Assembly (NCBI GenBank): GCA_017646685.1 | Contig: JAGCLZ010000017.1 | Coordinates: forward strand, 1-38,749 | Source: Bacteroidales bacterium | GTDB taxonomy: Bacteria; Bacteroidota; Bacteroidia; Bacteroidales; P3 | Length of the DNA: 38,749 nt | Reading direction: 5' to 3' | In this document: positions 1-38,749 of the stretch, piece after piece | How positions within the stretch are numbered: position 1 is the first letter of the stretch | Layout of the letters: every line of letters begins with the position of its first letter | Notes under the pieces: model-generated | What the model was told of the DNA's origin: nothing | The model's database searches: none | What the model saw: only the letters and a program-made list of their open reading frames with translations | Program-made: the position numbers and the translations under genes

Positions 1-30
1 CTCAGTCTCTTTTTTTCTCTTTTTTAAAAT

Positions 31-76
31 ATATACCGCTAACCACGCTAACCACGCTAACCGATAACCCCTTTAC
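31..76 (+). repeat. Left copy of border inverted repeat
   Basis: It starts ATATACCGCTAACC, continues with two further ACGCTAACC units and ends near GATAACCCC. The reverse complement of 4585-4629 reads almost the same, with the second and third units slightly changed. The pair therefore faces inward around the three-gene block. Whether this is a transposon end or a genome-wide repeat cannot be decided from one window. Confidence 0.6.
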
Positions 77-1978: not shown

Positions 1979-4468
1979 ATGATTTATAATATAAAAAATA
2001 AATCTGAGGGAGTGGTGAAGAACAGTAGCCAACCCTCGCAGGAAGAAAAAAGCAGTGTGGTCAGGTTCTTGACCAACAGGAGTAAACAAGGAGTAAGAGC
2101 TACCTTGGAGATGTTCGAAAATGATACCCAAAGTGCTCAAGTGCAGCAAGTATGCCAACAATTGGCAGAGCTTGACCCTGCTGCCGAAGACTACCAATCT
2201 CGCAAAACCAATCTTAAAGCTCAGTTGCCTTTGTATGCCTATTGTGGTTATAATGAGGCAGATAACAGAAGCGAAGAGTTTGTAAGTAATGGCAACGTGA
2301 TTATAGACCTTGATGGTCTGGAGAAGGAAACATTGGAGAACTGCAACCAGCTGGTCAAGAAGTGGAACGTGGCTACCAAGGCTCAAAAACTTTTGCTACT
2401 GCACCTAACGCCTAGTGGTAGAGGATTGCGAGTAGTGTTTCGTGGTAATCCCGAGTGGGATATGGTTCAAAATCAGCTTCAGTTTGCTAAGGAAACGGGT
2501 ATAGCCGCAAGTTTATTGGACACTGCCGTAAAGGATTTTAAACGACTAAGCTACATAGTGCCAGATAGTTATATATATTACATAAATAGAGATATGCTTT
2601 TTGGTGCTCCAGGCGAACCTTTGAAAGAGTATAAACACAATGCCGATACTACTACGGCAAGAGAAGTTAGTAGTACTAATAATAATTTATTAATCAATAT
2701 TTTAATGAAAAAAAATTCTACAATTGAAATTAATCGAGAGCTTGTTGACAACTATTTCAATAAGCACGGGTACAAGAGGAGGCAAGGACAACGCCACAAC
2801 GCCGATTTAGAGTTCGGTCGTACATTGAAGTATTATAATGTGCCTGAAAATGAGATAGGTGAATACTATCGATACTATATAAGTAAGTATGCCTCAGAGG
2901 GTATACTTGAGGGTGATGACCCTATAGAGACTCGTGAGGGATATGATGCTGTACTATGGGGGTATAATCATAATACTGCCCAAGATTCTGAACCTGAAGC
3001 ATGTACAACTACGCCAACAAATTGTGCAGAGCATACTTCGGATGCTGTGGCCCCGTTCTACCATTGTTCGTGGCAACAGCTTGAGAATGACTTCAATAAC
3101 ACGGCTTTCCTTGTTGACGAACTAAACAAGATAAAGCTGCCAAAGGCGATGGAAGCTACATTGAAACCAATTGTGAAAGATGAACGCCAAATGGCATCAA
3201 CTATACCTTCGTTCTTTGCAATATACACTGCTGCAAGTACTTATATGAATCATACTACATATACTACATCACAAGAGGGTGATAAGAAACGCATTGCGTT
3301 GAATACACTTGTAAGTGGTTCATTTGCAAGCGGTAAAGGTAATATCGAAAAAATAGTTCGCTTGTGGTCAAAAAAACTTCGAGAAGAAACTCGTAAATAT
3401 GAAGTCGCTCATAAAGAATGGAAGAAAGCAGTAAAAAGAGCTGAAAAAAATGGTGAAGAACTTGATTTGCCTGAACCTGTCAATCCTACTCTCTTTATGG
3501 GTGGTGATATAACTGAAGCTGCCATTAAGCACGTGCTGGAAAGAAGTAATGGGTATCGGTTGCTTACTTATACGAGTGAAGTAGATAGTGTGGGTAAAAA
3601 TAAATCGAACTTTTCGTTGAGTACAGCTACGTTGCGAAAACTATATGACAGTGAGAACCTTGACTATTCAAGAGCGGGTAATGCTCAGAATAAAGTAGGA
3701 GAATGGGATAACGACCAAACTCACACTGTGCCAGGGCTGGCCAACTATATCTTTTGTGGTACTCCTATGGCTATAGCTAAGTTTTGCCCAATGGAGAGTG
3801 CAGAAGATGGTACAGCATCCAGACAGATATTGTGCGAAATAGAAGATGTAGTTTTTGGTAAAAAACCTCTGGATTATCCTTACAATTACGTAGATAATCT
3901 GAAAGTAATAGACCCCGTTTGTAATGCTCTATTTAAGTGGGATGGTAATATGTATGTTCAGGAACTTGTAGAGCTTATGTATGATTGGGATGCTCAATGG
4001 ACTGATTATGCACGTGCTATAAACGATGTAGCTGTTGATAAACTTAAACGTCGAGCTTCGGAGCTTGGGTTGCGTATAGCATTAACGGACTATGCTGTCA
4101 AAGCTATCGAGGCTGGATATACTTTTAGTGGTGGTAGTTATAAGAAGAAAGGTAAAGCGTGTACTGCTCCTAAAGTATCGGAAGATACTAAGAATCTATT
4201 TATATTTGCGTCTAACTATATAATGATGAAGCAGATAAAATATTATGGTGCTCGTGTAAGAGAGATAAGTAAAAAAGCTATAGATTATTATACATATAGT
4301 GCATCAGTTGCTAAGGGTGGTTATTTTGATAAACTTCCTGAGATATTTACGGATGATGATATGGCTATATATTATAGAAGTAAAGGAAGTAGGAAAGTAG
4401 CACGTTGTAAATGGAATAAGCACAATATGATAAAGAATTTAGGTGATGGTAGGTATCAGAAGATATAA
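1979..4468 (+). CDS. Primase-helicase: BT4734-like (VirE N-terminal) primase domain plus DUF3987 helicase-like domain
   Basis: This 829-residue protein has an N-terminal primase-polymerase-like module. It shows IIDLDGL at 108-114, TPSGRGLRVVF at 144-154 and a DTAVKDFKRLSY segment from 181, the usual acidic, SGxG and Asp motifs of the family. A helical PriCT-like segment around 255-330 joins it to a DUF3987 region with a P-loop-like GSFASGKGN at 447-455 and a possible Walker B LLTYTSEVD at 528-536. Such proteins are expected to prime and unwind DNA, but that role is known from the family, not shown here. No replication partner (integrase, HU-like protein, amidase) follows, although these genes often have such neighbours in Bacteroides. 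A terminator follows immediately. Confidence 0.8.
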   Translation: MIYNIKNKSEGVVKNSSQPSQEEKSSVVRFLTNRSKQGVRATLEMFENDTQSAQVQQVCQQLAELDPAAEDYQSRKTNLKAQLPLYAYCGYNEADNRSEEFVSNGNVIIDLDGLEKETLENCNQLVKKWNVATKAQKLLLLHLTPSGRGLRVVFRGNPEWDMVQNQLQFAKETGIAASLLDTAVKDFKRLSYIVPDSYIYYINRDMLFGAPGEPLKEYKHNADTTTAREVSSTNNNLLINILMKKNSTIEINRELVDNYFNKHGYKRRQGQRHNADLEFGRTLKYYNVPENEIGEYYRYYISKYASEGILEGDDPIETREGYDAVLWGYNHNTAQDSEPEACTTTPTNCAEHTSDAVAPFYHCSWQQLENDFNNTAFLVDELNKIKLPKAMEATLKPIVKDERQMASTIPSFFAIYTAASTYMNHTTYTTSQEGDKKRIALNTLVSGSFASGKGNIEKIVRLWSKKLREETRKYEVAHKEWKKAVKRAEKNGEELDLPEPVNPTLFMGGDITEAAIKHVLERSNGYRLLTYTSEVDSVGKNKSNFSLSTATLRKLYDSENLDYSRAGNAQNKVGEWDNDQTHTVPGLANYIFCGTPMAIAKFCPMESAEDGTASRQILCEIEDVVFGKKPLDYPYNYVDNLKVIDPVCNALFKWDGNMYVQELVELMYDWDAQWTDYARAINDVAVDKLKRRASELGLRIALTDYAVKAIEAGYTFSGGSYKKKGKACTAPKVSEDTKNLFIFASNYIMMKQIKYYGARVREISKKAIDYYTYSASVAKGGYFDKLPEIFTDDDMAIYYRSKGSRKVARCKWNKHNMIKNLGDGRYQKI

Positions 4469-4502: not shown

Positions 4503-4575
4503 TGTCTACAAGTCCACAAGTCTTAAAGTCTTAAAGATTACTTGTAGTCTCGTAGTCTTGTTGTCTTGTTGTCCC
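4502..4575 (+). repeat. Octamer-register repeat, copy 3
   Basis: This is the longest copy, nine 8-base units from 4502: GTGTCTAC, AAGTCCAC, AAGTCTTA twice, AAGATTAC, TTGTAGTC, TCGTAGTC and TTGTTGTC twice, then CC. Compared with copy 1 it has an extra AAGTCTTA unit, so the family varies by whole octamers. Confidence 0.7.
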
Positions 4576-23576: not shown

Positions 23577-24014
23577 TTATTCTTCTTCTTTTTGAGGAAT
23601 TGCAGTCTTTGCTTTTTCGTCTAATCTATTTCCCAATATCATTGTGATATGATTTGAACGTTTCTTTATTCTGTATCCTCTTCCTTGTGGTGCAGTGCGT
23701 AATCTTTTCATTTGACGACCGCCATCAACCATAATATATTTGATGTACAATTCGTTATCTTCAATTCTCTTACCTTCATTTTTTGCTTGCCAATTAGCAA
23801 TAGCAGATAATAAAAGTTTACGCATTTTAGGTGCAGATTCTCTTGGGCTATATTGTAATATACCCAATGCTTTATCTACATCTAATCCACGAATTAAGTC
23901 AGCCACTAAACGAGTCTTTCTTGGCGAAGTTGGGTTATTAACCAACTTTGCCATATATATAGTTTTTTTGGCTTCTTTGCGCACTTCGGCACTATCATGT
24001 TTTCTACGTCCCAT
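23577..24014 (-). CDS. rplV: 50S ribosomal protein uL22
   Basis: uL22 sends a loop into the peptide exit tunnel near the macrolide site. NPTSPRKTRLVADLIRGLDV and the loop-and-end region RTAPQGRGYRIKKRSNHI are clear. The N-terminal MGRRKHDSAEVRKEAKK is a lineage extension, giving 145 residues. Confidence 0.97.
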   Translation of the reverse strand: MGRRKHDSAEVRKEAKKTIYMAKLVNNPTSPRKTRLVADLIRGLDVDKALGILQYSPRESAPKMRKLLLSAIANWQAKNEGKRIEDNELYIKYIMVDGGRQMKRLRTAPQGRGYRIKKRSNHITMILGNRLDEKAKTAIPQKEEE

Positions 24015-24029
24015 CTCTGCGAATTAATT

Positions 24030-24308
24030 TTATTTATTACCTTTATCTTTTTGTCCGGCATGTCCGCGGAAAATTCTTGTTGGGGCAAATTCTCCTAATT
24101 TATGTCCTACCATGTTTTCAGTAACATATACAGGAATAAATTTATTTCCATTATGAACAGCTATAGTCTGTCCAACGAAATCAGGAGAAATCATAGAAGC
24201 TCTCGACCATGTTTTTATGGTAACTTTTTTATTAGCTTCTTGTGCCTCTATCACACGTTTTTCCAATTTATGGAAAATATACGGACCTTTCTTTAAAGAA
24301 CGACTCAT
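24030..24308 (-). CDS. rpsS: 30S ribosomal protein uS19
   Basis: uS19 pairs with uS13 in the 30S head. The 92 residues start [18 protein letters not shown]. The core [20 protein letters not shown] and the end [18 protein letters not shown] are standard. Confidence 0.98.
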
Positions 24309-24333
24309 CTCTAATTAATTTAATAATCGTTTA

Positions 24334-25158
<825 letters not shown>

Positions 25159-25166
25159 TTCTCTTC

Positions 25167-25460
25167 TTAAATATTGCTATAAAAATCTATTGTATTACCT
25201 TCTGCTAATGTTACTATAGCTTTCTTAAATGCTGCAGTTTTACCTGTCAAAAAACCTGATTTTGTGTAACGTGATTTTACTTTTCCGCTATAATTCATCG
25301 TATTCACATCAACAACTTTCACATTGTAAAAACTCTCTACAGCGTTTTTAATTTGAATTTTATTCGCCCGTTTATCAACAACAAAGCCATAACGATTCGA
25401 CATTTTCTCGGTGGCTTTGTTCATTTTTTCACTTATCAGCGGTTTTACTATAATATTCAT
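25167..25460 (-). CDS. rplW: 50S ribosomal protein uL23
   Basis: uL23 stands at the tunnel exit and is the main contact for trigger factor and SRP. The 97 residues include [17 protein letters not shown] and [19 protein letters not shown]. It begins 32 bases after rplD and ends 8 bases before rplB. Confidence 0.97.
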
Positions 25461-25492
25461 CGTGTTAAAGTTTCTTAAGTTTGTTCACACTA

Positions 25493-26128
25493 CTATTTAT
25501 TTGTTGCCAAAACACGGGCAATTTCTACTAAAGAAGCCTCAGAAATGATCAAATTTGATGCATTAACTATGTCATAAGTATTTAATTGCGACACATTTGC
25601 AACCTTTACATTCTGTAGGTTTCTAGCTGACAAAGATACGAAATTATTTGGTTCTGAGAAAATAAACAGCGATTTTTTTTCTGCTATGTTTAAATTCTTC
25701 ATTATTTCAACCATTTTTTTCGTTTTTGGAGCTTCCATTGTGAAATTTTCCACTACTGTAATATTGTTTTCAGCAGCCTTATAGCTTAATGCCGAACGAC
25801 GTGCCAAACGTTTCAATTTTATGTTCAATTTGAAACGATAATCTCTTGGTCTTGGTCCAAAAACACGACCACCACCTACCAAAAGAGGAGAGTTGATGTC
25901 ACCACGACGTGCACCACCACCACCTTTTTGACGTCCTAATTTACGAGTGGATCCGCTTACTTCGCTTCTTTCTTTTGATTTATGAGTTCCCTGACGTTGA
26001 TTTGCCAAATATTGTTTTACATCCAAATATATAGCATGGTCATTAGGCTCTATTGCGAATATAGAATCATCTAAAACAACAGTTCTACCTGTTTCGCTTC
26101 CATTGATATTATATACTTTTAGCTCCAT
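25493..26128 (-). CDS. rplD: 50S ribosomal protein uL4
   Basis: uL4 extends a loop into the exit tunnel and, in E. coli, represses the S10 operon. The 211-residue protein has the loop region [19 protein letters not shown] followed by [15 protein letters not shown]. Its start overlaps the end of rplC by 10 bases, so translation is likely coupled. Confidence 0.97.
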
Positions 26129-26748
26129 CTCTCTATTTTTAAAATTGATCCTTTAGGTCCTGGTACAGATCCTTTTACTAACATCAAATTCTTTTCGGGA
26201 ATTATTTTCACGATTTGAAGGTTTTGAACCTTTACACGTTTTGCACCGGTTTGACCAGCCATACGCAATCCTTTAAACAAACGTGAAGGATACGAAGAAG
26301 CTCCAACTGAACCCGGAGCTCTCAAACGGTCATGTTGGCCGTGAGTTACATCACCAACACCACTAAAGCCATGTCTTTTTACTACACCTTGGAAACCTTT
26401 ACCTTTAGATGTACCTACAACATCAACAAATTCTCCTTCTTGGAAAACTGTAACGTCCAATACTTCTCCAAAAGATTTCTTACTTCCTTCTTCAAAACGA
26501 GAAAATTCTGCCAAATACTTCTTAGGAGTTGTATTTGCCTTAGCAAAATGACCCCTCATTGGTTTTGTAGTACGGCTTTCTTTCTTTTCTCCGAAAGCTA
26601 ATTGGATGGCCTCATAACCATCTTTTTCAATTGTTTTAACTTGTGTTACCACACAAGGACCAGCTTCTATCACTGTGCACGGAAGTTGTTTTCCGTTGGC
26701 ATCAAACAAACTGGTCATTCCTACTTTTTTTCCTAATAATCCTGACAT
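26119..26748 (-). CDS. rplC: 50S ribosomal protein uL3
   Basis: uL3 is one of the first 50S assembly proteins and reaches toward the peptidyl transferase centre. The 209 residues include [33 protein letters not shown] and the central loop ending [20 protein letters not shown]. The conserved Gln that is methylated in E. coli lies in the MAGQ segment or just before it. Confidence 0.97.
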
Positions 26749-26815
26749 TTCGTTTTTAATTAATCAGATTTGTTTTAAATCAGCATGTTTCTAAATAAAC
26801 CTCAACTGATTGTTA

Positions 26816-27121
26816 TCACACTTTAATTTCTACTTCTACACCGCTCGGCAACTCTAGCTTCATCAATGCATCGATGGTCTTTGCAGATGTACTGTAAATA
26901 TCCATCAATCTCTTGTAAGAACTCAATTCAAATTGTTCTCTTGATTTTTTATTGACGAAAGTCGAACGGTTTACTGTAAAAATCTTCTTGTTAGTTGGTA
27001 ATGGAATTGGACCATTAACAACCGCACCCGTCATTTTTACGGTTTTTACGATCTTTTCAGCTGACTTATCAACCAAATTGTGATCGTACGATTTCAATTT
27101 AATTCTAATTCTTTGACTCAC
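26816..27121 (-). CDS. rpsJ: 30S ribosomal protein uS10 (NusE)
   Basis: uS10 is in the 30S head and, with NusB, acts in antitermination and in coupling through NusG. The 101-residue sequence starts [20 protein letters not shown] and has [20 protein letters not shown] in two segments. It follows fusA by 28 bases, so the str and S10 groups are joined. The 67-base gap to rplC is AT-rich. Confidence 0.98.
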
Positions 27122-27149
27122 GGTTTTCGATTTTTTATAAACTCGTTTA

Positions 27150-29234
27150 TTAATAACTTTTCTTTAGAATGTTTTCTGATATATCCTTAGGCAACTCGGC
27201 ATAATGAGAAAATTCCATTGTCGAGTTGGCTCGTCCTGATGTTATAGTACGTAGAGCTGTTACATAACCAAACATTTGTTGCAATGGTACTTTTGCTTGA
27301 ATAGCTTGTACTCCAACCTTAGCTATGACATTTTCCAATACTCCACGACGACGATTCAAGTCTCCGGTTACATCTCCTAAATATGCATCAGGCGTCAATA
27401 CTTCCAACTTCATTATTGGTTCCAACAAAATTGGATTTGCCTTACGACATGCTTCTTTAAAGCCTACTCGCGCACATAACTCAAACGACAATGCATCTGA
27501 ATCAACAGGATGGTAAGAACCATCTATGATACGCACTTTCATACTTTCCATAGGATAACCGGCTAATACGCCATTATCCATTGCTGATTTGAAGCCTTTT
27601 TCTATTGCAGGCATATATTCTTTTGGAATATTTCCACCCTTAACTTCATTAATGAATTGCAATCCTTTGAAACCTTCGTCTGCAGGACCTATTTCAAATA
27701 TAATATCGGCAAACTTACCACGACCACCAGTTTGTTTCTTATATACTTCACGGTGCTGATAACTTGCAGTTATAGCTTCTTTATATGCTACTTGAGGTGC
27801 TCCTTGGTTTACTTCTACATTAAATTCTCTTTTCAAACGATCTAATATAATATCCAAGTGCAACTCTCCCATTCCATTGATAATAGTTTGGCCCGAAGTT
27901 TCATCACTTTTTACAACAAGTGTAGGATCTTCTTCTACCAATTTTATCAATGCGTTGTTCATCTTATCGATATCTCCTTGTGTTTTAGGTTCTATTGCTA
28001 TACCGATAACAGGTTCAGGAAATTTCATCGATTCCAATATTATTGGATGATTTTCATCGCATAATGTATTGCCGGTTTTGATATCTTTAAAACCTACTGC
28101 TGCTCCAATATCACCTGCAGAAATTACTTCCATAGGATTTTGCTTATTAGCATGCATTTGCATAATGCGAGAAATACGTTCTTTCTTTCCTGTTGATGCA
28201 TTATATACATACGAACCAGACTCTAATTTTCCAGAGTAAACACGGAAGAAGCAGATACGTCCAACATAGGGATCTGTAGCTATTTTAAATGCTAATGCCG
28301 AAAATGGTGCTTTTACATCAATAGGACGAATTTCTTCTTCATCTGTTTTTGGATTAACTCCCTCTACACCTTCTATATCCATAGGGCTAGGCAAAAATGC
28401 TGCAACAGCATCCAATAAAGATTGAATACCTTTATTTTTGAACGATGCACCGCATAATACAGGAGTTATACGCATTTCCAATGTAGCTTTACGTATTTGA
28501 GCCAACATCTCTTCTTCTGTGATCGAATTAGGATCATCAAAGAATTTGGCCATCAACTCTTCATTGTCTTCAGCCACACCCTCAATCAATTTTTGACGAT
28601 ATTCATCAGCGATATCTTTCAAATCATCAGGCATTGGAACTTCGTAAAACTTAGTTCCATTTGAAGCCTCGTCCCAAATGAGAGCTTTGTTGCGTATTAA
28701 ATCCACAACTCCTTTAAACAAATCTTCTTGTCCAATAGGAATTTGCAATGGAATAGGATTTGTACCTAAACGTTCTTTAATTTGGCCTATAACCGAAAAG
28801 AAGTCGGCACCTGCTCTATCCATCTTATTGATGAATGCAATACGTGGCACTTTGTACTTATCAGCTTGACGCCATACCGTTTCCGATTGAGGCTCAACAC
28901 CACCTACAGCACAAAATAATGCCACAGCACCATCTAATACTCTCAAGGAACGTTCAACTTCTACTGTGAAATCCACGTGACCCGGAGTATCTATTATATT
29001 ATATTTGTATTGATTATTCTGATAATTCCAAAACACAGTAGTAGCGGCAGAAGTAATTGTTATACCTCTTTCCTGCTCCTGAGCCATCCAGTCCATTGTA
29101 GCTGATCCATCGTGGGTCTCTCCCAATTTATAGTTCTTTCCTGTGTAGAACAAAATACGCTCGGTTGTGGTTGTTTTTCCGGCATCGATGTGAGCCATAA
29201 TGCCTATATTTCTTGTAAATTTCAGTTCAGACAT
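27150..29234 (-). CDS. fusA: Elongation factor G
   Basis: EF-G is the GTPase that moves tRNA and mRNA after peptide transfer and, with RRF, recycles ribosomes. The 694 residues include G1 AHIDAGKT at 14-21, the switch [12 protein letters not shown]3 DTPGHVD and G4 NKMD. Domains II-V follow, with GYPMESMKV and a C-terminal half without gaps. The str group here is rpsL-rpsG-fusA without tuf, which must lie elsewhere. Confidence 0.97.
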
Positions 29235-29271
29235 ACTGTTTCGGTTATCTTTGTAATCTTTTGTTTCTTAA

Positions 29272-29739
29272 TTAAAATCTAAAGTGAGAGAATGCTTTGT
29301 TAGCTTCTGCCATTCTGTGGGTTTCTTCTTTACGTTTGAAAGCTGCACCCTCTTCTTTGTAAGCTGCTTGAATTTCGCTAGCCAACTTCAAAGCCATTGT
29401 TTTCTCACCTCTTTTACGAGCATAACCTATAAGATTCTTCATTCCTATAGACATCTTACGTTCCGGACGGATTTCTGATGGGATTTGGAATGTTGCTCCA
29501 CCAATTCTACGACTACGTACTTCAACAGAAGGAGTTACATTAGCCAATGCTTTCTTCCATACTTCCAAACCGTCTTCTTTTGTACGGTCGGCTACTACAT
29601 CAATTGCTTCGTAGAATATCTTATATGCTGTTGTTTTCTTGCCGCCTAACATCAAATTGTTGACAAACTTTGTAACTAGAGTGTCGTTAAACTTAGGATC
29701 CGGTAAAATAATTCTCTTTTTTGGTCTTGCTTTTCTCAT
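29272..29739 (-). CDS. rpsG: 30S ribosomal protein uS7
   Basis: uS7 nucleates the 30S head and shapes the E site. In E. coli it represses the str operon. The 155-residue sequence opens [19 protein letters not shown]. The signature [20 protein letters not shown] and the ending [11 protein letters not shown] are clear. It lies 32 bases after rpsL. Confidence 0.98.
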
Positions 29740-29771
29740 TACTCTATAAAAGCTCTAATGTTATTATTATT

Positions 29772-30155
29772 TTATTTTGCTGCTTGTTTTGGACGTTTTG
29801 CACCGTATTTAGAACGTCTTTGTCTTCTACCATCTACTCCCGATGTGTCTAATGCACCACGGATGATGTGATATCTTACACCTGGTAAATCTTTAACACG
29901 ACCACCTCTGATCATCACGATAGAGTGCTCTTGCAAGTTGTGTCCTTCGCCTGGAATGTAAGCATTAACTTCTTTTTGATTTGTCAAACGAACCCTGGCA
30001 ACTTTACGCATTGCCGAATTAGGTTTCTTAGGAGTAGTTGTGTACACACGTGTACAAACTCCTCTACGTTGAGGACAAGAGTCTAGTGCAGGAGATTTAC
30101 TTTTGTACTCCATTTGCTGACGTCCTTTACGGATTAATTGTTGAATTGTTGGCAT
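29772..30155 (-). CDS. rpsL: 30S ribosomal protein uS12
   Basis: uS12 is part of the decoding centre. The 127-residue sequence contains [18 protein letters not shown] with lysines at 43-44, the wild-type state at the streptomycin-resistance position. It also has [13 protein letters not shown], including the Asp that RimO methylthiolates in many bacteria. It is the first gene of the long minus-strand translation cluster and has a promoter-like box upstream. Confidence 0.98.
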
Positions 30156-30234
30156 ACTGTACTTTAAATACTATACTTTTAATGTTTAAAATTTAATATG
30201 TTTTGTCTATTACTTATCCCATAATTTGGGACTG

Positions 30235-30242
30235 CAAAATTA
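30235..30242 (-). promoter_or_regulatory. Candidate -7 box for the translation supercluster
   Basis: On the minus strand TAATTTTG fits TAnnTTTG and lies 80 bases before the rpsL ATG. No TTG is placed well for the -33 element, so confidence is moderate. The rest of the 322-base gap 30156-30477 is AT-rich with no gene I can support. Confidence 0.4.
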
Positions 30243-30477
30243 CTATTTTTTTCCCACATAGAGAGTATTACTTTTTATTTCGAGACAAAAAAAAAGTTAA
30301 AATCCTAGATAGGCATTATCTATCAGCATATTAGAGAACACAAAATATGCACAAAAAGTTTGCATCACCAATAAGTTTTCAACAGTTCGTGCGCCTTTTA
30401 TATCGCCAAATATTAGTTTTTTACAGCATTTTGTACACATTTTTGTTCATTTTATCCCTGTTAAAACACTGCCCAAA

Positions 30478-31119
30478 CTAAAGCACTCCTTCTCTCAATT
30501 CCAAGTTACACATAAACAACTGCTCCATTGTTTCGCCACCTGTAAGGTGATAGGCGTTGAGCCCAACCGTACGAGCTGCCGCTACATGTTGGGGACTATC
30601 GTCGATGAAAAGGGTTTCTTCGGGCAGGAGACCTTGCTCCTCAATTATGGCTTTGAAGCCTTCGGGTTTGGGCTTGCGTATCTGAAGCAGCTGCGAGAAA
30701 TAGGCTTTTTTGAACGTTACCTCGAAGATGTCAAAACCGTACTTTGCACGAAGATCGGTGGTAAAACGGTCGTAGTTTATCTGATTGGTGTTGCTGTATA
30801 GAAATATATTGTACTTCAGCCGTAGCATTCCAAGCAGTTCGAGGCGAGGTTTGGGTATGTCTATCAGTATTGCATTCCAAGCATCGTCGATTTGGCTATC
30901 GGTCAGAGGCACGGGCGAAAGGCTGCGTATATAATCGCGAAAGTCGGCCGGGCTGATTTTTCCCTCCTCAAAGAGGTCGATTGTGTCGGTTTGCGAAGCC
31001 TTCGAATAAAGCTTCTCAAAATCGGTGATGCCATAGCTGCGAAACTTGTCGGCTATGTTTTCGTAGCGTATGTCGTAGATAACGCCACCCAAATCAAATA
31101 TTATGTTCTTTATAGCCAT
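30478..31119 (-). CDS. HAD-superfamily hydrolase, YihX-like
   Basis: From the ATG at 31119 the protein has 213 residues. Motif I FDLGGVIYD keeps the nucleophile Asp and has Gly in the second acid position, as in the YihX and HAD-IA variant 3 group. A short helical cap, motif II LYSNTNQ, the motif III lysine in IRKPKPEGF and motif IV FIDDSPQHVAAA follow. YihX releases glucose from alpha-glucose-1-phosphate, but the substrate here is unknown. An in-frame ATG at 31335 would add 72 residues. I reject it because a TATCTTTG promoter box (31171-31178) falls inside that extension, which is also unlike the family. Confidence 0.85.
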   Translation of the reverse strand: MAIKNIIFDLGGVIYDIRYENIADKFRSYGITDFEKLYSKASQTDTIDLFEEGKISPADFRDYIRSLSPVPLTDSQIDDAWNAILIDIPKPRLELLGMLRLKYNIFLYSNTNQINYDRFTTDLRAKYGFDIFEVTFKKAYFSQLLQIRKPKPEGFKAIIEEQGLLPEETLFIDDSPQHVAAARTVGLNAYHLTGGETMEQLFMCNLELREGVL

Positions 31120-31170
31120 AGTATTGTCAATATATATGTTATATAGTTTTCTTGTTTTGCTCTGCTGTTG

Positions 31171-31178
31171 CAAAGATA
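31171..31178 (-). promoter_or_regulatory. Promoter -7 box for the YihX-like gene
   Basis: TATCTTTG on the minus strand is an exact TAnnTTTG match, 52 bases before the chosen ATG. The expected -33 site reads GTG rather than TTG. Confidence 0.55.
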
Positions 31179-31339
31179 CGCATTGTGTACGAATTTTCAC
31201 CCGCCAAGGTTTCGTTTCTATCCAAAACTTGTTGCATTCGCCTACAGGCATACCCAAATATTTTTGGTCCATGCACCATATCGACACACATACCCGTTTC
31301 AACCCCCTCGCCCTCACGAGCGGACAAAGCGTCACAGCC

Positions 31340-31381
31340 GTCTGATAAACTATTTTTAATCAAGTAGATAAATTATCAGAC
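31340..31381. repeat. Intergenic inverted repeat
   Basis: GTCTGATAA (31340-31348) and TTATCAGAC (31373-31381) are perfect inverted copies with a 24-base AT-rich spacer. It lies between two divergent genes and lacks a T run, so it is not an obvious terminator. Function is unknown. Confidence 0.5.
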
Positions 31382-31439
31382 TCGATTAATAAAATAATTC
31401 CATAGCTTGAAATTAATTTTTCTGCCGGAACTGAGTTTT

Positions 31440-31587
31440 TTTTCAGTCGGGTCCGGGAAGTTTTTCAGTCGAGTCGGAGGTATTCTTTCAGTCGGGTCGG
31501 AGAAGTTTTTCAGTCGGGTCCGGGAAGTTTTTCAGTCGGGTCGGAAAAGTTTGCCTATCGGGTTTGAGAAATTTTGCTGTCGGGTCG
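31440..31587. repeat. Seven-copy 22-bp tandem array
   Basis: Units with the core CAGTCGGGTC start at 31444, 31466, 31489, 31511, 31533, 31555 and 31577. The period is 22 bases, with one step of 23. The consensus is TTTTTCAGTCGGGTC then SGRGAAGT. The first five copies are close and the last two are diverged (CTATCGGGTT, CTGTCGGGTC). The period is not a multiple of three, so the array is unlikely to code for protein. It is near two turns of DNA, as in arrays bound by a protein on one face. It ends 113 bases before a consensus promoter. Confidence 0.85.
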
Positions 31588-31699
31588 TTGCCCAAAACAG
31601 GAGCTGACTGCGGCAGCCATTTTCCGCCAAGGAAAAGAAATACAACCGTATACCATTGGTCGATGAGATGACTTTGAACGAAAAAAATTTCGCAACCGC

Positions 31700-31730
31700 T
31701 TGGTTTAATGACCGACATTGTGTAAATTTG
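31700..31730 (+). promoter_or_regulatory. Consensus Bacteroidota promoter for the barrel-lipoprotein pair
   Basis: TTG at 31700-31702, a 20-base spacer and TAAATTTG at 31723-31730 match the -33/-7 consensus fully. The expected transcript starts about 36 bases before the ATG at 31773. Confidence 0.75.
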
Positions 31731-31772
31731 CTGACGGATGTAAACTGTAATTAATCACAAAGACAACAGATT

Positions 31773-32372
31773 ATGAAACACTTAGGATTATTTATTGCGA
31801 TGCTTGCGATGTCATTTTCAGTCTTATCGCAAAGCAATTCGGGCAAAAGCCTTGCCCCCAAGCCTGCGAGAGAGGGATTTGTAATGCTGAACGGAGCTTA
31901 CTCCATTGCCCCACAGTTTTCCGTTGGCTTTACGGCCGGCATGCAACGCACATGGGGCTGGTGGGTAAGCATGGCCACGGATTTGAATTCGGGCTTCCCC
32001 GAGTTTACCAAAACGGATGCCGATGGCAGAAGCGATTACTACTACACCGGTAGCAAGAAAACCTCGCGCCTATCGCTACAAGCAGGCGGCATGTACAAGT
32101 TCAGCCGGCTGTTTTCGGCCAAACTTGGTGCCGGCTACGGCTACCGCAAGGTGGGATACAAAACCATGGGCAACGACTTTGTGAAGATAGCCGACCAAAG
32201 TTTTCAAGGTCTCGAATATTCCGTAGGGCTACACCTTGGCTTGGGCGAAACCTCGTTTTCGGCCGACCTTTCCACCATCGGCTTCAGCTTCCGATATGCC
32301 GAAGTGAAGATTGGCGTAGGCTACAGCTTCAAGATAAAAAATTCCAAACCTCGTAAAAACATTAAATCATGA
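31773..32372 (+). CDS. Small outer-membrane beta-barrel-like protein
   Basis: The 199-residue protein has a signal peptide (MKHLGLFIAMLAMSFSVLSQ). It then runs through alternating hydrophobic and polar strands rich in Gly, Tyr and Phe, for example FSVGFTAGMQRTWGWWVSM, LSLQAGGMYKFSRLFSAKLG and AEVKIGVGYSFKI. This fits an eight- to ten-strand barrel in the outer membrane, but no named family is certain. Its stop overlaps the start of the next gene as ATGA, so the two are coupled and likely act together. A tail KNSKPRKNIKS follows the last strand. Confidence 0.65.
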   Translation: MKHLGLFIAMLAMSFSVLSQSNSGKSLAPKPAREGFVMLNGAYSIAPQFSVGFTAGMQRTWGWWVSMATDLNSGFPEFTKTDADGRSDYYYTGSKKTSRLSLQAGGMYKFSRLFSAKLGAGYGYRKVGYKTMGNDFVKIADQSFQGLEYSVGLHLGLGETSFSADLSTIGFSFRYAEVKIGVGYSFKIKNSKPRKNIKS

Positions 32373-33892
32373 AACGATTACTTACATTGGCAGTATTGGC
32401 CCTATTGGCCATGCTGCATGGCTGCCAACGCGATTTGGACGAGCCTATAAACATTCCCATCATTAGCGACGAAGTTAACCCAAACGCAAGTTTTGCCATC
32501 ATAAGCGGCAGGCTGCAAAGCCCCGTTGCCACGGCAAAACTGGAGGTGCACGTATATACCACCGCCACGGCCGCCAACCCTGCTGTGCACACCGTTGTGC
32601 TGAAGGCCGACAACAGCTTCGAGACTACCATCGATGGCCTGGTGGCAAACACAGACTACCTATATAAATATATTGTGTATAGCAAGGTGGACCGTGCCGA
32701 ACTTACACCGCTAAAGTTTCGCACCAAGGATGGCAACTCGCCACTGGTAAAGACCGGCAAGGCCGAATTTGCATCGAAAGCCGCGGCTATGTGTGGCGGC
32801 GAAGTTACGTCGGACGAAGGTTTTGCCGTAACGGCACGCGGCGTATGCTGGAACACACAGCCCAAGCCTACCATAGCCGACAGCCATACCACCGACGGTA
32901 CGGGTGTGGGAACTTTCAAATCCATGATGACAAAACTTGATGAAAACACCACCTACTACGTGCGTGCATACGCCACCAACAAAAACGGCACCAACTATGG
33001 CGAGCAGATAACCGTAACAACCAACGAGGGGCTACCGGTGGTAACAACCCATGCACCTACGGATATTGTGGTGAACGCTGCCTCGGCAGGTGGCTACATC
33101 ATATCAAACAGCGGCTACGCCATAACGGCACGTGGTATCTGCTACAGCACTGCCGAAAACCCGACCACAGACGACAACCGCATAGAAGTGGGTAACGGAG
33201 TAGGACGTTTTTACACACGGATAACCGGCTTGAGCAAAAACACAACCTACTACGTGCGTGCCTACGCCACAAACATCAACGGCACAGTGTATGGCGAGCA
33301 ACGAACCTTTACCACCCAGGACTACGAGCAGATATGCGGCCACGACTATGTGGACCTCGGGCTGCCGAGCGGCCTAAAGTGGGCAACCCACAACATCGGG
33401 GCCGACAACCCGTGGGACTACGGCAACTACTACGCCTGGGGCGAAACCTCAACCAAGGAATTTTATAGGCAAAACAACAGTCGCACTTTCGGCAACAGAG
33501 CAATAGAAGACATAAGCCGCATACCCGATTATGATGCCGCTGCCGCCAATTGGAAATGCACTTGGCGAATACCTACAAAAGATGAGATGATTGAATTAGT
33601 AGAAAATTGTGCCTTCGAATTAACAAGTGTGAACGGGAAAAACGGTGCCCTATTTACCGGAAGCAACGGCAACACCCTATTCCTGCCTGCCGCCGGAGGA
33701 CTTGAATATCGTGAGCCACCTTATGATGGACTTTTGGGACACTACTGGACTTCTACCGTTTATCATGCAAGCACATTAGAGGGCAGGTATTCGTATACGC
33801 TTTTTTTCTATACAGATTCTAATAATCCACAAGCATTTCTTCACATAGCGCTTCGTTACCTTGGTCTTCCCATCCGCCCTGTATCGGACTAG
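32369..33892 (+). CDS. Lipoprotein with FN3-like repeats and a FISUMP domain
   Basis: This 507-residue lipoprotein has a lipobox ending LHGC with Cys19. The following QRDLDE resembles the acidic lipoprotein export signal of Bacteroidota, which would place it on the cell surface. A beta-sandwich region (40-120) is followed by two repeats at about 128-219 and 222-316, each with TARGVC or TARGIC and NTTYYVRAYATN. The C-terminal 180 residues start VDLGLPSGLKWATHNIG and contain WRIPTKDEM and YWTST. This is the Fibrobacter succinogenes major paralogous (FISUMP) domain. Function is unknown; adhesion or substrate binding is plausible. The DNA turns more AT-rich from about 33460. Confidence 0.8.
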   Translation: MKRLLTLAVLALLAMLHGCQRDLDEPINIPIISDEVNPNASFAIISGRLQSPVATAKLEVHVYTTATAANPAVHTVVLKADNSFETTIDGLVANTDYLYKYIVYSKVDRAELTPLKFRTKDGNSPLVKTGKAEFASKAAAMCGGEVTSDEGFAVTARGVCWNTQPKPTIADSHTTDGTGVGTFKSMMTKLDENTTYYVRAYATNKNGTNYGEQITVTTNEGLPVVTTHAPTDIVVNAASAGGYIISNSGYAITARGICYSTAENPTTDDNRIEVGNGVGRFYTRITGLSKNTTYYVRAYATNINGTVYGEQRTFTTQDYEQICGHDYVDLGLPSGLKWATHNIGADNPWDYGNYYAWGETSTKEFYRQNNSRTFGNRAIEDISRIPDYDAAAANWKCTWRIPTKDEMIELVENCAFELTSVNGKNGALFTGSNGNTLFLPAAGGLEYREPPYDGLLGHYWTSTVYHASTLEGRYSYTLFFYTDSNNPQAFLHIALRYLGLPIRPVSD

Positions 33893-33991
33893 AAGGGAAC
33901 AATCTTCCCTTGCGATACAACCAAAACTCACTTGCGAAGGAATTCCAAATAAGGCAGAAAGAAAGAGAGAAAGAAAGCCATAGCAGATGAA

Positions 33992-34033
33992 ACACGCAAG
34001 GCGATTGCCCCATGGGGTAATCGCCTTGCGTGT
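33992..34033. terminator. Long hairpin between convergent genes
   Basis: ACACGCAAGGCGATTGCCCC pairs along its whole length with the following inverted copy, centred on ATGGGG, with only one G-T pair. It lies between the lipoprotein stop and the stop of the opposing PPDK-like gene and would block transcription from both sides. Neither strand shows a long T run, so the call rests on position and stem strength. Confidence 0.6.
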
Positions 34034-34045
34034 AAAAATAAAGTT

Positions 34046-36679
34046 CTACAGTTCTTGTATCATACGGTTGTAGCGGTCGCGGTTCCATGGCTGGCTTAGG
34101 TCGAAGACCTCTTCGGCCGGGCGTGAGAGTTTTTGGATAAGCAGCAGGGTATTGTCCTGCATGCTGTCAAACTTGCGGCATTCGGCTTCCACCGCGTCCC
34201 AGTCGACTCCAATATGTATGAGAGTGGCAAAGTTGAAGAGGTTGAAGGTGCCTATGTTAAAGTTGTGCATCCCTTCCGACACTATTTTGGAGTGTGCTCT
34301 CGTCAGCTTTGTTTCGCCTACCTCTTCCAATACTTGTAGGTACTTTTCATATAGTATGTACTCGTTCAGCATGTATGCTACTTCCGCTGGGGTAAAGTCG
34401 CACCAAAAACGACAGGGCAATGGCTTAGCCACAAAGCGCCCCAGCATAAACGAGCCGGCACTCAGTCCCGAAAGATTTTGTTTTATGCAGTTGCTTATCA
34501 CTTGCTTGAAGAAGTCTATCTTTTTGGTCATATCCAGTAGGTCGAACACACGGGATTGATCCTGATGCGAACCCATCTTGCTTTCTAGCACCTGGTGGAT
34601 GTAGCGGTTGGCGTTTTCGTCGTACCACGAGTTTACCACCTCCTTGGCCTTTTCGGGGTTCTCCTTCAGGTCGCAACGGATTATGCGAGCCAGAGTGTCA
34701 ATGTCGGCTATATAGTTGGTTTGAGTTGAGTTGATAATCTCTTGATATTTGGTGTAGGCCGTTTTTAGGTTTTCAAACACCGGTTTTTCTTTTCCTTCGA
34801 GCACCACGTTTTCACCGTTCAGGTATTTCATAAACCTTGCCGGGCGGAAGTCGGCTTCACCTATATATATGGTTTGATGTTTGCTTGAAAGTGTTATCTT
34901 GTCGCCTTCGCTTATTACTATTCCATTGGCATTTACAAGGGAGTTGCCTTCCATACGTATTCCGTAAGATTGGAGGTTGAGGAAAGCCGGTATTCCATAT
35001 CCGCGACAAGCCGTTACCACATGTATTGCAGCCGGAGTCATACTCAGTATGGCGTCAACCTCGTTCAGCGTTATGGTATCTTCGGGTATAAAACGCTCTT
35101 GGCACAAGCATACCGAATATCCTTGCTTCTTCATCTCGCTGGCTTTGGCAGCACTGAAGCATATCACCGCCGTTATGGCGGTACGCGGAAGCACGTTCAA
35201 TCCCTTTCCGAAGAAGGTGAGTTTGGAAAGCGACTTCTCATCGATACTGTCCGAAATTATCTGTCGCAAGTGGTATGGGCGTATTAGCTGCACCACATCC
35301 TCCTTGTTTATTATCCCCCTCTCGTACATAGCTATACTCGAAAGCAAGGCCGAGCGTCCTGTAAGTTCCGACATATTTAGCTGCAAGACGGCAAACAAAC
35401 TGGCACGATCGGGCACCGTTTCTACCGCAAACTCTATTGTAACCGGCGACTTGAAGCGACTTTCCAGCTTGGTAAGCAAGGGGTCGAAGTGGTATACAGC
35501 CGGAAACTTGGTTTTGATCTCGCTGCGGTCGAAGTATTCGGTGTCTTCGGACGAGATGTAGCCCGTCATAATCTCTTCTCCAAATATGTTCTTGTAACTT
35601 TCTATCTGGGTTCCGCGTCCTGTTCGGCTGTGGCGGCTGTGCATCACACCGGGATAAGACTCGTCGTTACCCACTGTCCATACCATTTTGTGGAGTATAA
35701 AGGAGGGGTATGCGTGCTTGCCCTGCATAAAGGTAAGTATGGAGTCTTGGTTCTCCACATAGAAGTCGCGCACATAGTTCATAAAGGTCTTTACTTGATA
35801 CATTGCGTCGGTAAGCAGTTGGCTACCAGTCTGGGCTTGGCGTATCTCGCTTTCCATCCGTTCTATCTTCTCGCGTTGGAGGTTTACAGGCAGCGTGTTG
35901 TTGTCGCTCTGGTGCTCTTCTTTCAGCGAAAGCATGTCGAATATGTTTTGTAATGTACTTAGGTAAATTCGGTTTGCCATGCTTTCGGGGTATCTTTTCA
36001 GCAGGCCTATGTAGGCATTTTGGGTTACACCGATGTTGAGCAGTGTAGGCATAAGTCCGGGTATGTATTGTGGCATGGCCGTACGTATGGCAAATACCAA
36101 CGGATTATCGTCGGACCCCAGCTTACTGAAGGTCATAATCTCAAGGTTTTCGATAGCAGTCTCTACGAGGGAGTTCCAATAGGGATTGTGAAAACTAAGC
36201 GAGCTGAGTATACAAAAATCTGGCACAGAGTAGCACTGTTGGGTAAGTTCCAACAGCATCCTACCCTTGTAACTAATGTCAAACACCGAATACTCCTGCT
36301 CGGCAGTAGGCGTTACTATCTCTATATCGTTTTGCAAAGGATGGCTGTCCACATACTCTTTACATCGATCATACATAGTGGTTCGCAACCGTTCGAGCTC
36401 TTCGCGCACACTGGTATCGCCTTGCTCTTCGCGTATCAGTAGCGAAAGGAAGTGTTTACTTTTGTGGTGTTCGTTCTTTAGCAGGTAAAATATGTCGTAC
36501 CACCGAGGGGCAATCTCATGCTTGGTGTCGTCACCTTCGAGGGTGTATATCACAGTGCCGGGTTTGTTGCCCTCGCGTTCGTTTTGTTTTTCAAATATGT
36601 CACGTCCGCAGTCGGCATACAGCTTCACCATAAAATAGTTGGGATAGCTAGCACGAATAAGAAATTTGCTTATATTCAT
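34046..36679 (-). CDS. PPDK-like protein: ATP-grasp and phosphohistidine domains, no PEP barrel
   Basis: From the ATG at 36679 it has 877 residues. A GTG start at 36727 would add 16. Residues 137-480 follow the pyruvate phosphate dikinase nucleotide-binding domain. YKGRMLLEL and VPDFCIL match the KGxxLxEM...VPPGF start. RTAMPQYIPGLMPTLLNIG (199-217) matches the PPDK SVRSGA..MPGMMDTVLNLG segment. IEFAVE with Glu416 and LQLN with Gln433 match EFTIE..LQTR, but the last Arg is Asn435. Residues 490-610 match the swivelling domain: IPEDTITLNEVDAIL, then AIHVVTACRGYGIP with His553 and the family's Arg six residues later, and an ending GDKITL...YIGEA. Residues 1-135 and 611-877 are unrecognised, and the C-terminal PEP/pyruvate TIM barrel is absent. 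It may phosphorylate His553 from ATP and pass the phosphate to another acceptor. Confidence 0.7.
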   Translation of the reverse strand: MNISKFLIRASYPNYFMVKLYADCGRDIFEKQNEREGNKPGTVIYTLEGDDTKHEIAPRWYDIFYLLKNEHHKSKHFLSLLIREEQGDTSVREELERLRTTMYDRCKEYVDSHPLQNDIEIVTPTAEQEYSVFDISYKGRMLLELTQQCYSVPDFCILSSLSFHNPYWNSLVETAIENLEIMTFSKLGSDDNPLVFAIRTAMPQYIPGLMPTLLNIGVTQNAYIGLLKRYPESMANRIYLSTLQNIFDMLSLKEEHQSDNNTLPVNLQREKIERMESEIRQAQTGSQLLTDAMYQVKTFMNYVRDFYVENQDSILTFMQGKHAYPSFILHKMVWTVGNDESYPGVMHSRHSRTGRGTQIESYKNIFGEEIMTGYISSEDTEYFDRSEIKTKFPAVYHFDPLLTKLESRFKSPVTIEFAVETVPDRASLFAVLQLNMSELTGRSALLSSIAMYERGIINKEDVVQLIRPYHLRQIISDSIDEKSLSKLTFFGKGLNVLPRTAITAVICFSAAKASEMKKQGYSVCLCQERFIPEDTITLNEVDAILSMTPAAIHVVTACRGYGIPAFLNLQSYGIRMEGNSLVNANGIVISEGDKITLSSKHQTIYIGEADFRPARFMKYLNGENVVLEGKEKPVFENLKTAYTKYQEIINSTQTNYIADIDTLARIIRCDLKENPEKAKEVVNSWYDENANRYIHQVLESKMGSHQDQSRVFDLLDMTKKIDFFKQVISNCIKQNLSGLSAGSFMLGRFVAKPLPCRFWCDFTPAEVAYMLNEYILYEKYLQVLEEVGETKLTRAHSKIVSEGMHNFNIGTFNLFNFATLIHIGVDWDAVEAECRKFDSMQDNTLLLIQKLSRPAEEVFDLSQPWNRDRYNRMIQEL

Positions 36680-36897
36680 AGTCGGTATGCATTTTCGTTT
36701 GATATAGTAAACAACGGAGGTTTCCACATTTTGTTGCCCGTCGGTAACAATTATGTGTCTGTGATTGGTGCCGCAATGATAATGCCGGTTTTCTATCCAT
36801 ATTTCATTGCATCATCGTTTTCACAAGGTTGTTTCACCTGTTGTTTTTTGCTTGGTTTGAAGGCGATGGTTCAAAGAGCCCGAAACTTATAATATTC

Positions 36898-37038
36898 AAA
36901 GTTCGAGATCCATAGTCTCCTTGGATGAAAGACAACTACCCGCCTCGAACTTTCCGGCTATGCAGCCCGCAGCCTGCAGTTGCTATTCCCAAGCCAATAT
37001 GCTTTGGCACCGGACTAAGTGGTTTTTGCCAGACGCAT
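36898..37038. other. Structured intergenic region between divergent genes
   Basis: AAAGTTCGAG (36898-36907) pairs with CTCGAACTTT (36944-36953). Inside this stem, ATCCA (36908-36912) pairs with TGGAT (36922-36926). A second arm pairs ATGC/TGGCA (36999-37009) with TGCCA/GCAT (37027-37038). No tRNA, known riboswitch or T run is recognised. It could be a 5' leader of the PPDK-like gene (about 220 bases from its ATG) or act on the beta-CASP gene on the other strand. No coding frame is supported in 36680-37127. Confidence 0.4.
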
Positions 37039-37127
37039 GATGCTTTTTTTTGCAACAAAAATAATATTTTCAGCTTGTAGGCGTTAGATGTTGCAAACAA
37101 GACAAGTCTATAACACAAATACATTAT

Positions 37128-38537
37128 ATGAATATACAATTTTTAGGTGCTGCCAAAGAAGTAACGGGCAGCAAGCATTTGATTACAACCCGTCGTGGTT
37201 TGAAAATACTGCTGGACTGCGGTATGTATCAAGGTAAAGGTTTGGAAACCGATAGTATGAACCGTGATTTGGGCTTCGACCCTTTGGAAATTGACTACAT
37301 ACTTCTTTCCCATGCCCACATAGACCATTCGGGTCTTATCCCCTACATCTATCGTTTGGGTTTCAGAGGTACTGTGCTTTGCACGCCAGCCACTCGCGAC
37401 CTTTGTGCCATCATGCTTGCCGATGCCGGCAAGATACAAGAGTCGGATACTCGCACATTCAACAAGAAGCGCCGTGCTGCCGACCCAAAGGTAAAGGATG
37501 TTGAGCCACTTTTTACCTCGGCCGATGCCCAGGAATGTATGCAATGTTTTATAAGCGTACCTTATCACAAACCTTTCAACATAGAAAACGAAGTAACGAT
37601 AGAGTTTTATGATGCCGGACATATATTGGGCAGCTCGTCGATATACATTCAAGTACGCGAAGGACGACGAAACATCAAACTATGCTTTACCGGCGATATC
37701 GGTCGCTATTCGTCGCATATACTCAAAGATCCCGAACCATTCCCTCAGGTGGATTATCTGATAATGGAGTCGACCTACGGCGACCGCACCCACTCTACCT
37801 TTGGCAATGCCGAACAAGACCTGCTGATGGCTACCCTCGACACCTGCACCAAAAAGAAAGGCAAACTGATAATACCATCTTTTGCCATAGGTCGTGCCCA
37901 AGAAATAATATACGCTTTCAACTGTTTGAAGAACAAAAAGCTGTTGCCCGACATCGACGTGTTTGTCGACAGCCCGCTAAGTGTGTCGGCTACCAACATC
38001 ATGCGTTTGCATACCGAATGCTTCAACGACAATATAATCGAAGAGATGAAGAAAGACCCCGACCCATTTGGTTTCGACAAGTTGCAGTATATACAAACCA
38101 TCGATGCTTCGAAGGCTTTGAACCAACGCAACAAAACATGTATCATCATCTCGGCATCGGGTATGATGGAGGCAGGACGTGTAAAACACCATTTGGCCAA
38201 TAGTATTGATAACCCCAAAACCACAGTGCTATGTGTGGGTTATTGTGCTCCCACTACTTTGGGCGCCAAAATCATGCGTGGCGACAACAAAGTGTCTATC
38301 TTCGGCCGCCCGATTACCGTTCGTGCCGATCTACGCCGTATAGATGCCTACTCGGCTCATGGTGACTATGAGGAGATGATACAATACATCTCATGCCAAA
38401 ACAAAAAGAAACTGAAAAAGATATTCCTTGTTCATGGCGAAGAAGAAACCCAAGCCAACTTTCAAAAGACTTTGAACGAACGTGGTTTCAAATCGGTAGA
38501 AATACCCTGCCGCCTGGATAGCATAGAGCTAAACTAG
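37128..38537 (+). CDS. Beta-CASP metallo-beta-lactamase RNase (CPSF/YSH1-like)
   Basis: The 469-residue protein has the zinc motif HAHIDH at 62-67, His165 in GHILGS, and Asp190 in TGDIG. The beta-CASP insert carries ESTYGDRTH at 214-222 and PSFAIGRAQE near 250. It ends with the C-terminal motifs SASGMMEAGR, DAYSAHGD and VHGEEET. These are the metallo-beta-lactamase and RMMBL (RNA specificity) motifs of RNA-processing nucleases. Length fits the prokaryotic CPSF-like group and not RNase J. It is likely cytoplasmic and acts on RNA 3' processing or decay. A strong terminator follows. I know no standard gene symbol. Confidence 0.9.
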   Translation: MNIQFLGAAKEVTGSKHLITTRRGLKILLDCGMYQGKGLETDSMNRDLGFDPLEIDYILLSHAHIDHSGLIPYIYRLGFRGTVLCTPATRDLCAIMLADAGKIQESDTRTFNKKRRAADPKVKDVEPLFTSADAQECMQCFISVPYHKPFNIENEVTIEFYDAGHILGSSSIYIQVREGRRNIKLCFTGDIGRYSSHILKDPEPFPQVDYLIMESTYGDRTHSTFGNAEQDLLMATLDTCTKKKGKLIIPSFAIGRAQEIIYAFNCLKNKKLLPDIDVFVDSPLSVSATNIMRLHTECFNDNIIEEMKKDPDPFGFDKLQYIQTIDASKALNQRNKTCIIISASGMMEAGRVKHHLANSIDNPKTTVLCVGYCAPTTLGAKIMRGDNKVSIFGRPITVRADLRRIDAYSAHGDYEEMIQYISCQNKKKLKKIFLVHGEEETQANFQKTLNERGFKSVEIPCRLDSIELN

Positions 38538-38565
38538 TACACAATCAGTTCGCAATACATAAATT

Positions 38566-38605
38566 GGCTACGCAGCACACATCCCTTGCTGCGTAGCCAT
38601 ATTTT
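38566..38605 (+). terminator. Intrinsic terminator after the beta-CASP gene
   Basis: GGCTACGCAGC and GCTGCGTAGCC form a perfect 11-bp stem with an 11-base loop. ATATTTTT follows. It is 28 bases past the stop codon. Confidence 0.85.
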
Positions 38606-38648
38606 TATCTATTACTGTCCGCTAAAACTTATGTCTAAACATAAAAAT

Positions 38649-38686
38649 AAAAGGCTGGCTTCGATTTTGAAGTTCAGCCTTTTTTA
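38649..38686. terminator. Hairpin near the putative IS end
   Basis: AAAAGGCTG pairs with CAGCCTTTT, with an inner CTTC/GAAG stem and a T run. It could stop readthrough into the element from either side, a feature seen in many IS ends. Confidence 0.6.
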
Positions 38687-38719
38687 ATTATATTAGAGTT
38701 GCCACACTAAAATATAATT

Positions 38720-38749
38720 ATGAGCAAAAGTACACATTTTTTCGGACAG
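38720..38749 (+). CDS. Partial N terminus, possible IS4-family transposase
   Basis: Only ten codons are present, MSKSTHFFGQ, running off the window. The FFGQ ending resembles the start of Bacteroidota IS4-family transposases that carry a DUF4372 N-terminal domain. Ten residues cannot prove this. Confidence 0.35.
   Translation, partial: MSKSTHFFGQ

Follow-up and report, generated by a model that had tools for sequence, protein, structure and literature searches.

Palindromes dispersed between genes are familiar from REP and BIME elements, and single-gene partition loci of the plasmid pSK1 par type combine a DNA-binding protein with repeats upstream of its own gene. The closest described system is the BrickBuilt MITE of Porphyromonas gingivalis, in which arrays of short tandem units are dispersed through intergenic DNA (19 copies in one strain); its 23-nt units share a single orientation and are bounded by a leader and a tail, the ends being IS5-like (PMC4596501). 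BrickBuilt_14 (one of the 19) adjoins a gene listed as a DNA-binding protein of the HU family, PF00216 (PMC4596501, Table 1).

Here, we analyzed an array of seven 22-bp units that lies upstream of a surface-protein operon in a Bacteroidales genome (G000); the window is the whole analyzed stretch of 38,749 nucleotides. We consider it probable that these units make up the right arm of an element that has decayed, that the element belongs to a dispersed family, and that the family represents candidate binding arrays for HU-HIG proteins. Our literature searches, with most subscription papers outside their coverage, returned no described DNA target of HU-HIG proteins, and those on six of the palindromes, HU-HIG, the Bacteroidetes HU expansion, and Bacteroidales repeats returned no description of these arrays. 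A study of HU clades published in 2017 may bear on their novelty.

The reported array is one side of a larger element

Tandem Repeats Finder placed the array at 31439-31587 (period 22, 6.7 copies, 76% matches), and reading by hand gave unit starts at 31439, 31461, 31484, 31506, 31528, 31550, and 31572, i.e., five steps of 22 bp and one of 23, with the seven units reaching to 31593. Mean pairwise identity among units was 0.725, whereas shuffling these bases 1000 times gave 0.27 (maximum 0.34), which bears out the seven-unit array that an earlier note on this DNA had claimed. That note was also right that the flanking genes diverge (a hydrolase on the minus strand and the operon on the plus strand) and that a GC-rich core sits in an AT-rich spacer, with a G+C content of 50% in 31439-31593 versus 38% in 31119-31438. 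A promoter had been placed 113 bases past the array, and we found a promoter-like motif, TTG-N20-TAAATTTG, 112 bases after 31587; it is kept in two related operons of the sister genome G001, and we take it to be the Bacteroidetes-type promoter consensus and hence a putative promoter.

A genome search for the core CAGTCGGGTC, as the earlier note had proposed, returned five occurrences on both strands of the 2.45-Mb draft, four in the window array and one elsewhere; the core is thus almost restricted to this array and is useless for finding relatives. What had been overlooked is that the array is half of something bigger, a symmetric element whose start lies near 31336 (Table 1). The window copy has outward-pointing arm units on both sides, clear on the right and degenerate, though aligned with a paralogue, on the left, and it retains one palindrome where full members have four at 21-bp steps. 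The palindrome ("brick") pattern gave 20 matches in the window's genome versus four for a reversed control. No HU-HIG gene was found in the window, and elsewhere in the same genome (G000 C133) a HU-HIG gene is accompanied by an array of this type (TTCCAAA-type palindromes).

Table 1 Features of the window element and its flanking genes (feature, positions in the window, strand, basis)
Left arm, about three degenerate outward 22-bp units	31336..31397 (approximate limits)	-	Reading; aligns with the G001 C221 left arm (BLAST)
Sole remaining center palindrome, TTCCATAGCTTGAAA	31398..31412	.	Exact brick-pattern match
Degenerate join of center and right arm	31413..31438	+	Sequence reading
Right arm (the reported array), seven 22-bp units, one step of 23	31439..31593	+	
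Promoter-like TTG-N20-TAAATTTG ahead of the operon	31700..31730	+	Same motif in G001 C38 and C221
Operon gene 1, 199 aa, outer-membrane beta-barrel-like	31773..32372	+	Weak PF13505 match under the cut-off
Operon gene 2, 507 aa, fibronectin-III-like repeats	32369..33892	+	Weak matches under cut-offs
Divergent neighbor, HAD-family hydrolase	30478..31119	-	PF00702, E 8.9e-14

Elsewhere in the window, an 8-bp tandem repeat, CTTGTAGT, occurs in two copies about 4.4 kb apart (104-136 and 4541-4573), and four copies of a perfect 24-bp repeat occupy 348-444.

The locus in sister genomes

Comparison of unit numbers in relatives, also proposed earlier, showed the same array at the same place in G001, with 98% identity over 171 bases and the same number of units. 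A third genome of the genus (G004) yielded a 43-base match only, at a different place, and in 58 of the 61 genomes searched the window array sequence had no match. At the homologous place of a paralogous operon in G001 (C221, element L125), there is a left arm, four palindromes of the TTYCAAA-N-TTTGRAA type at 21 bp, and 22-bp arm units, GTCGTGTC, and the flanks of this element align with those in the window. Because of this comparison, we read the window copy as a degenerate left arm, one palindrome, and a long right arm.

Between G000 and G001, differences numbered 5/654 in 31119-31772, 19/641 in the HAD gene, and 91/600 in the first surface gene (31773-32372). This gene thus differs by 15% and the region before it by less than 1%; by reading, its initial ~80 bases are alike and divergence follows thereafter. 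Homologues of the operon's first protein outside both operons were mostly distant domains, and arrays were absent from the upstream DNA inspected. Separately, a 6.7-kb stretch is 99.985% identical between G002 and G001 (L147 1-6730 and L172 1-6731), far above their usual identity, reflecting either recent transfer or a binning error.

A dispersed family of palindromes between outward arms

GTDB genomes were searched for two palindromes at 21 bp; the seed demanded one 21-bp pair, and extension allowed 20- and 22-bp steps. At least 117 loci were recovered, of which 112 of those listed are Bacteroidota by title, many of them (among the matches listed) from ruminant or horse gut. The loci outside Bacteroidota (L126, L157, L159, L207, and L215) contain two or three palindromes each and resemble chance or unrelated matches. 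Among the 117 loci listed, 88 have four palindromes, 15 have three, ten have two, three have five, and one has 17, and all 332 of 332 steps are 21 bp. The 17-palindrome case (L154, from 637), at a Prevotellaceae contig end, is a long, minisatellite-like form. Full members consist of four 15-bp palindromes at 21-bp steps between outward-pointing 22-bp units on both sides, and the left flanks (reversed) and right flanks of the listed loci share one base profile, periodic at 22 bp. Length rules removed seven long-arrayed or edge elements from some of the palindrome, flank, and orientation counts.

The elements sit in tandem (35), convergent (16), and divergent (15) gaps, versus 65, 20, and 32 for other gaps, an orientation preference that is weak at best. 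Mechanical ORFs enclose 34 of the 117 listed elements; 24 of these ORFs are at most 126 aa and are probably spurious, and the other ten are longer. Since some elements overlap ORFs, an intergenic position is not sure for every one.

Across 61 genomes, the excess of the palindrome pattern over its reversed control was clearest in the genus of the window (20-59 vs 2-8), with smaller excesses in, e.g., G059 (13 vs 3), G014 (12 vs 4), G031 (10 vs 4), G010 (9 vs 0), G013 (9 vs 1), and G051 (7 vs 0); in G046 and G052, the pattern was rarer than the control. Some of these genomes with an excess (such as G014, G010, G013, and G051) are without a strong HU-HIG homologue, which counts against our preferred explanation. 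A looser 22-bp unit pattern allowing two mismatches, which served only for finding examples and most of whose single matches may be chance, outnumbered its reversed control in five of the six genomes searched; in the sixth, G003, it was the rarer of the two (10 vs 16, both strands together).

Likeness between neighboring arm units ran 0.41, 0.44, 0.38, and 0.30 per side, versus 0.27-0.29 in shuffled sequence, and then dropped to the chance level. Arms in the listed loci thus extend recognizably for some four units on either side, while the right arm in the window has seven. This unusual length, together with the alikeness of its units, speaks for the part of the earlier note that had offered a minisatellite as one option, as do central bases that change between genomes. 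Seven palindromes could be aligned between G000 (C133, C24, and C152 among their sources) and G001 (C23, C19, and C96); the central base, which flips between C and G, differs in five of the seven, the window palindrome being among the two unchanged, and other positions differ in 4 of 98. The central base is therefore free, and the flips suggest, from these alignments, hairpin-linked mutation or slippage. A plain, functionless minisatellite grown by replication slippage is nonetheless improbable, given the same unit number in G001, the low divergence of the 31119-31772 region relative to the HAD gene, and the remainder of the element and its relatives.

A structure at the RNA level, e.g., a long hairpin or terminator, could draw on the fold energy of 31330-31600 (z = -2.3; 2 of 200 shuffles fold as well). 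Arms within one element resemble each other no more closely (0.416) than do arms from separate elements of that genome (0.451). This speaks against a long hairpin and leaves arm-arm pairing unsupported, and a search of Rfam yielded nothing above cut-off, just a microRNA match far below it; we regard this explanation as highly improbable. The earlier note's option of a replication-origin iteron set has in its favor the tandem units of 22 bp, but relatives are dispersed within each genome and no initiator gene was recognized on reading the ORFs of 24000-38749, so that we give it next to no chance.

Some elements lie directly before HU-HIG genes

At one site in G000, G001, G002, and G005, an element precedes the same gene, with palindrome and spacer sequences that differ among the four. 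The gene encodes a 209-aa protein with a match to PF18291 (HU-HIG), for which the linked protein (L231:3224-3850:+) scored 44.8 bits versus a curated cut-off of 26.2. A profile built from this protein and four others found 11 members among the 3460 mechanical ORFs of the 117 listed loci, every one of them immediately next to an element. Four of the 11 had been put in the profile after being seen beside elements, which leaves seven independent finds, including one that is 98% identical to the query. Gene starts face the element in 10 of the 11 cases; in the eleventh (L153, two palindromes), the mechanical ORF is overlong upstream, and beyond the element the first ATG occurs at 4289. Altogether, ten genomes have an element directly before a HU-HIG gene, encoding an HU domain and, here, a winged helix. 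Among start-facing neighbors, 10 of 56 match HU-HIG and every other family has at most three (56 of 58 scanned, two very long proteins being omitted, and six of the 117 loci dropped as chance or unrelated). Homologues at E < 1e-30 were present, among 61 genomes, only in the six of the window's genus and in G059, with a weaker one in G047 (1.6e-15) and weak ones only in three other genomes.

Arrays were also scored without a motif, as four palindromes at equal steps of 20-23 bp, using part of the listed HU-HIG matches and only those regions that had all 420 bp and were free of runs of N (G065:C14 is N). Scores of at least 20 were reached by 23 of 85 HU-HIG upstream regions versus 6 of 554 control upstream regions, the latter from three loci (Fisher p 1e-16, treating genes as independent, which they are not). 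Downstream of HU-HIG genes, 9 of 90 regions scored at least 20, one of them being upstream of the next HU-HIG gene. The remaining 62 of the 85 upstream regions scored below 20, some of these genes sitting inside clusters; in the C120 cluster, the array lies before the third listed gene, not the first. HU-HIG proteins are expanded in this lineage: the window's genome has at least 38 HU-HIG matches, several in tandem clusters (C51, C60, C86, C120, C147, and C159). Within the winged-helix clade (19 of 30 loci, with weak, partial, or fragmentary matches omitted and L263 short of upstream DNA), the best step was 21 bp in 18 of 18 genes, 14 scoring at least 20 and four 17-19.

By eye, tandem repeats of ~21-22 bp are also seen upstream of 1500 at weak HU homologues in other genera (L255 of G016 and L256 of G024).

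Genome-specific palindromes and their candidate proteins

Arrays built in the same way, but from different palindromes and at steps of 21, 22, or 23 bp, accompany further HU-HIG paralogues. Their palindromes include TCCCAAG-CTTGGGA, AAATCATG, and TATCAAG types, five copies of CCTAACTTAGTTAGG, four of CTCACGWCGTGAG, and others. The five copies of CCTAACTTAGTTAGG stand before the C60 HU-HIG gene, and one exact copy occurs on C52; a near form, CCTAAC-N3-GTTAGG, makes seven palindromes at 22 bp on C117 (L387 ~2062-2208, G000), beside a gene that is presumably dinB. No HU-HIG gene was found near the C117 and C52 sites in the stretches inspected.

We compared 58 dispersed arrays from nine genomes in which a HU-HIG-adjacent array is known; for 49 of them the best match was such an array of their own genome, versus a mean of 11.4 and a maximum of 22 in 2000 label shuffles, which overstate the support because elements within one genome are related. 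The match was complete in RUG10906 (19/19), G002 (12/12), Minthosoma (7/7), CACZXN (4/4), and CACXKA (2/2), and poorer in CACZBS (3/5), G001 (1/2), JAFYQQ (1/2), and G005 (0/5). Functionless homogenization within genomes could also produce it.

Such homogenization would fit a non-autonomous, mobile or duplicating repeat of the MITE kind, as BrickBuilt is, that lies between genes with no regulatory role and whose HU-HIG link is hitch-hiking. Three loci of G000 (C24, C55, and C152, with two, four, and four palindromes) share ~400 bp with 82-89% identity, consistent with duplication or transposition, and the lack of a strong orientation preference points the same way. Against this stand the linkage of arrays to HU-HIG genes, the filling of the same site in four species with differing brick sequences, and the variation of palindromes by HU-HIG paralogue; moreover, BrickBuilt-type ends are not enriched, the IS5-like GAGACCTTYGCA having two matches at two mismatches in the whole window versus 4.1 expected, and none near the array. 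We therefore judge a mobile repeat of this kind unlikely, though worth keeping in view. The earlier note would have taken many similar arrays at random sites as refutation; dispersed relatives do exist, but the HU-HIG link makes their placement non-random.

An AlphaFold2 model of the G001 orthologue of the linked protein (pLDDT 85, pTM 0.50, nine sequences) indicates, from the order of helices and strands, a predicted HU-like part followed by a C-terminal winged helix, whose relative placing is not fixed because of the low pTM. Its best PDB matches were chains of 4FMR (E 2.5e-5), a Bacteroides vulgatus protein annotated as putatively DNA-binding, and further matches were HU proteins and winged helices (E ≥ 0.005). 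Among 21 proteins compared, the recognition helix reads SAHREL in four, the same four that are labeled TCCCAAG, though their palindromes are partly mixed; the fifth member of this group, in G001, has SAYREL and TTYCAAA palindromes. With so small and related a sample, this apparent correspondence of helix and palindrome is a lead, not a test.

Candidate binding arrays for HU-HIG proteins

Returning to HU-HIG binding arrays as the reading we favor, protein dimers would sit on the 15-bp palindromes, which, being 21 bp or two helical turns apart, would all face the same side of the helix; DNA bending would come from the HU parts, and the complex might spread into the outward 22-bp arm units as weaker sites. 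The repeated protein contact on one face suggested in the earlier note is the best of its options, with the amendment that the primary sites are likely the neighboring 21-bp palindromes and not the 22-bp units. By its position, an array before a HU-HIG gene suggests autoregulation, and arrays elsewhere would be additional targets of the same protein. With its center reduced to one palindrome, the window copy might still modulate the surface-protein operon; this is a conjecture prompted by its position and conservation, and the weaker part of the case.

These arrays suggest that HU-HIG proteins have DNA addresses of their own. A more tentative proposal, to which we give somewhat less than even weight, is that Bacteroidales HU-HIG paralogues might be parallel sequence-specific systems with private palindromes, winged helix and palindrome co-changing, each having four or five copies at 21-23 bp before its gene and sometimes other chromosomal sites too, and that the window would be a worn outpost of one such system. 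If so, one cell would contain many independent DNA addresses. If the arrays are HU-HIG sites, each paralogue becomes testable with defined DNA, a code linking winged helix to palindrome may be readable from sequence, and repeats that otherwise pass as minisatellites would acquire a meaning.

Comparison with known systems

Set against HU-HIG and HU-related proteins (PF18291; TIGR01201), the linked protein lies above the cut-off of the former and below that of the latter. The pSK1 par type is alike in having a DNA-binding protein gene with an upstream repeat array, but its protein has another fold, and the arrays here are also spread over the chromosome. REP and BIME elements are likewise dispersed, intergenic palindromes, whereas here four stand in tandem at 21 bp with arms. 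Among the elements whose descriptions our searches returned, BrickBuilt is the closest: both are dispersed, intergenic Bacteroidales arrays with flanks unlike the repeats. They differ in unit, ends, and build, with 23-nt direct units in BrickBuilt versus, here, palindromes at 21 bp between two outward arms, whose unit in the window is 22 bp, and the link to HU-HIG genes is a feature of the arrays described here.
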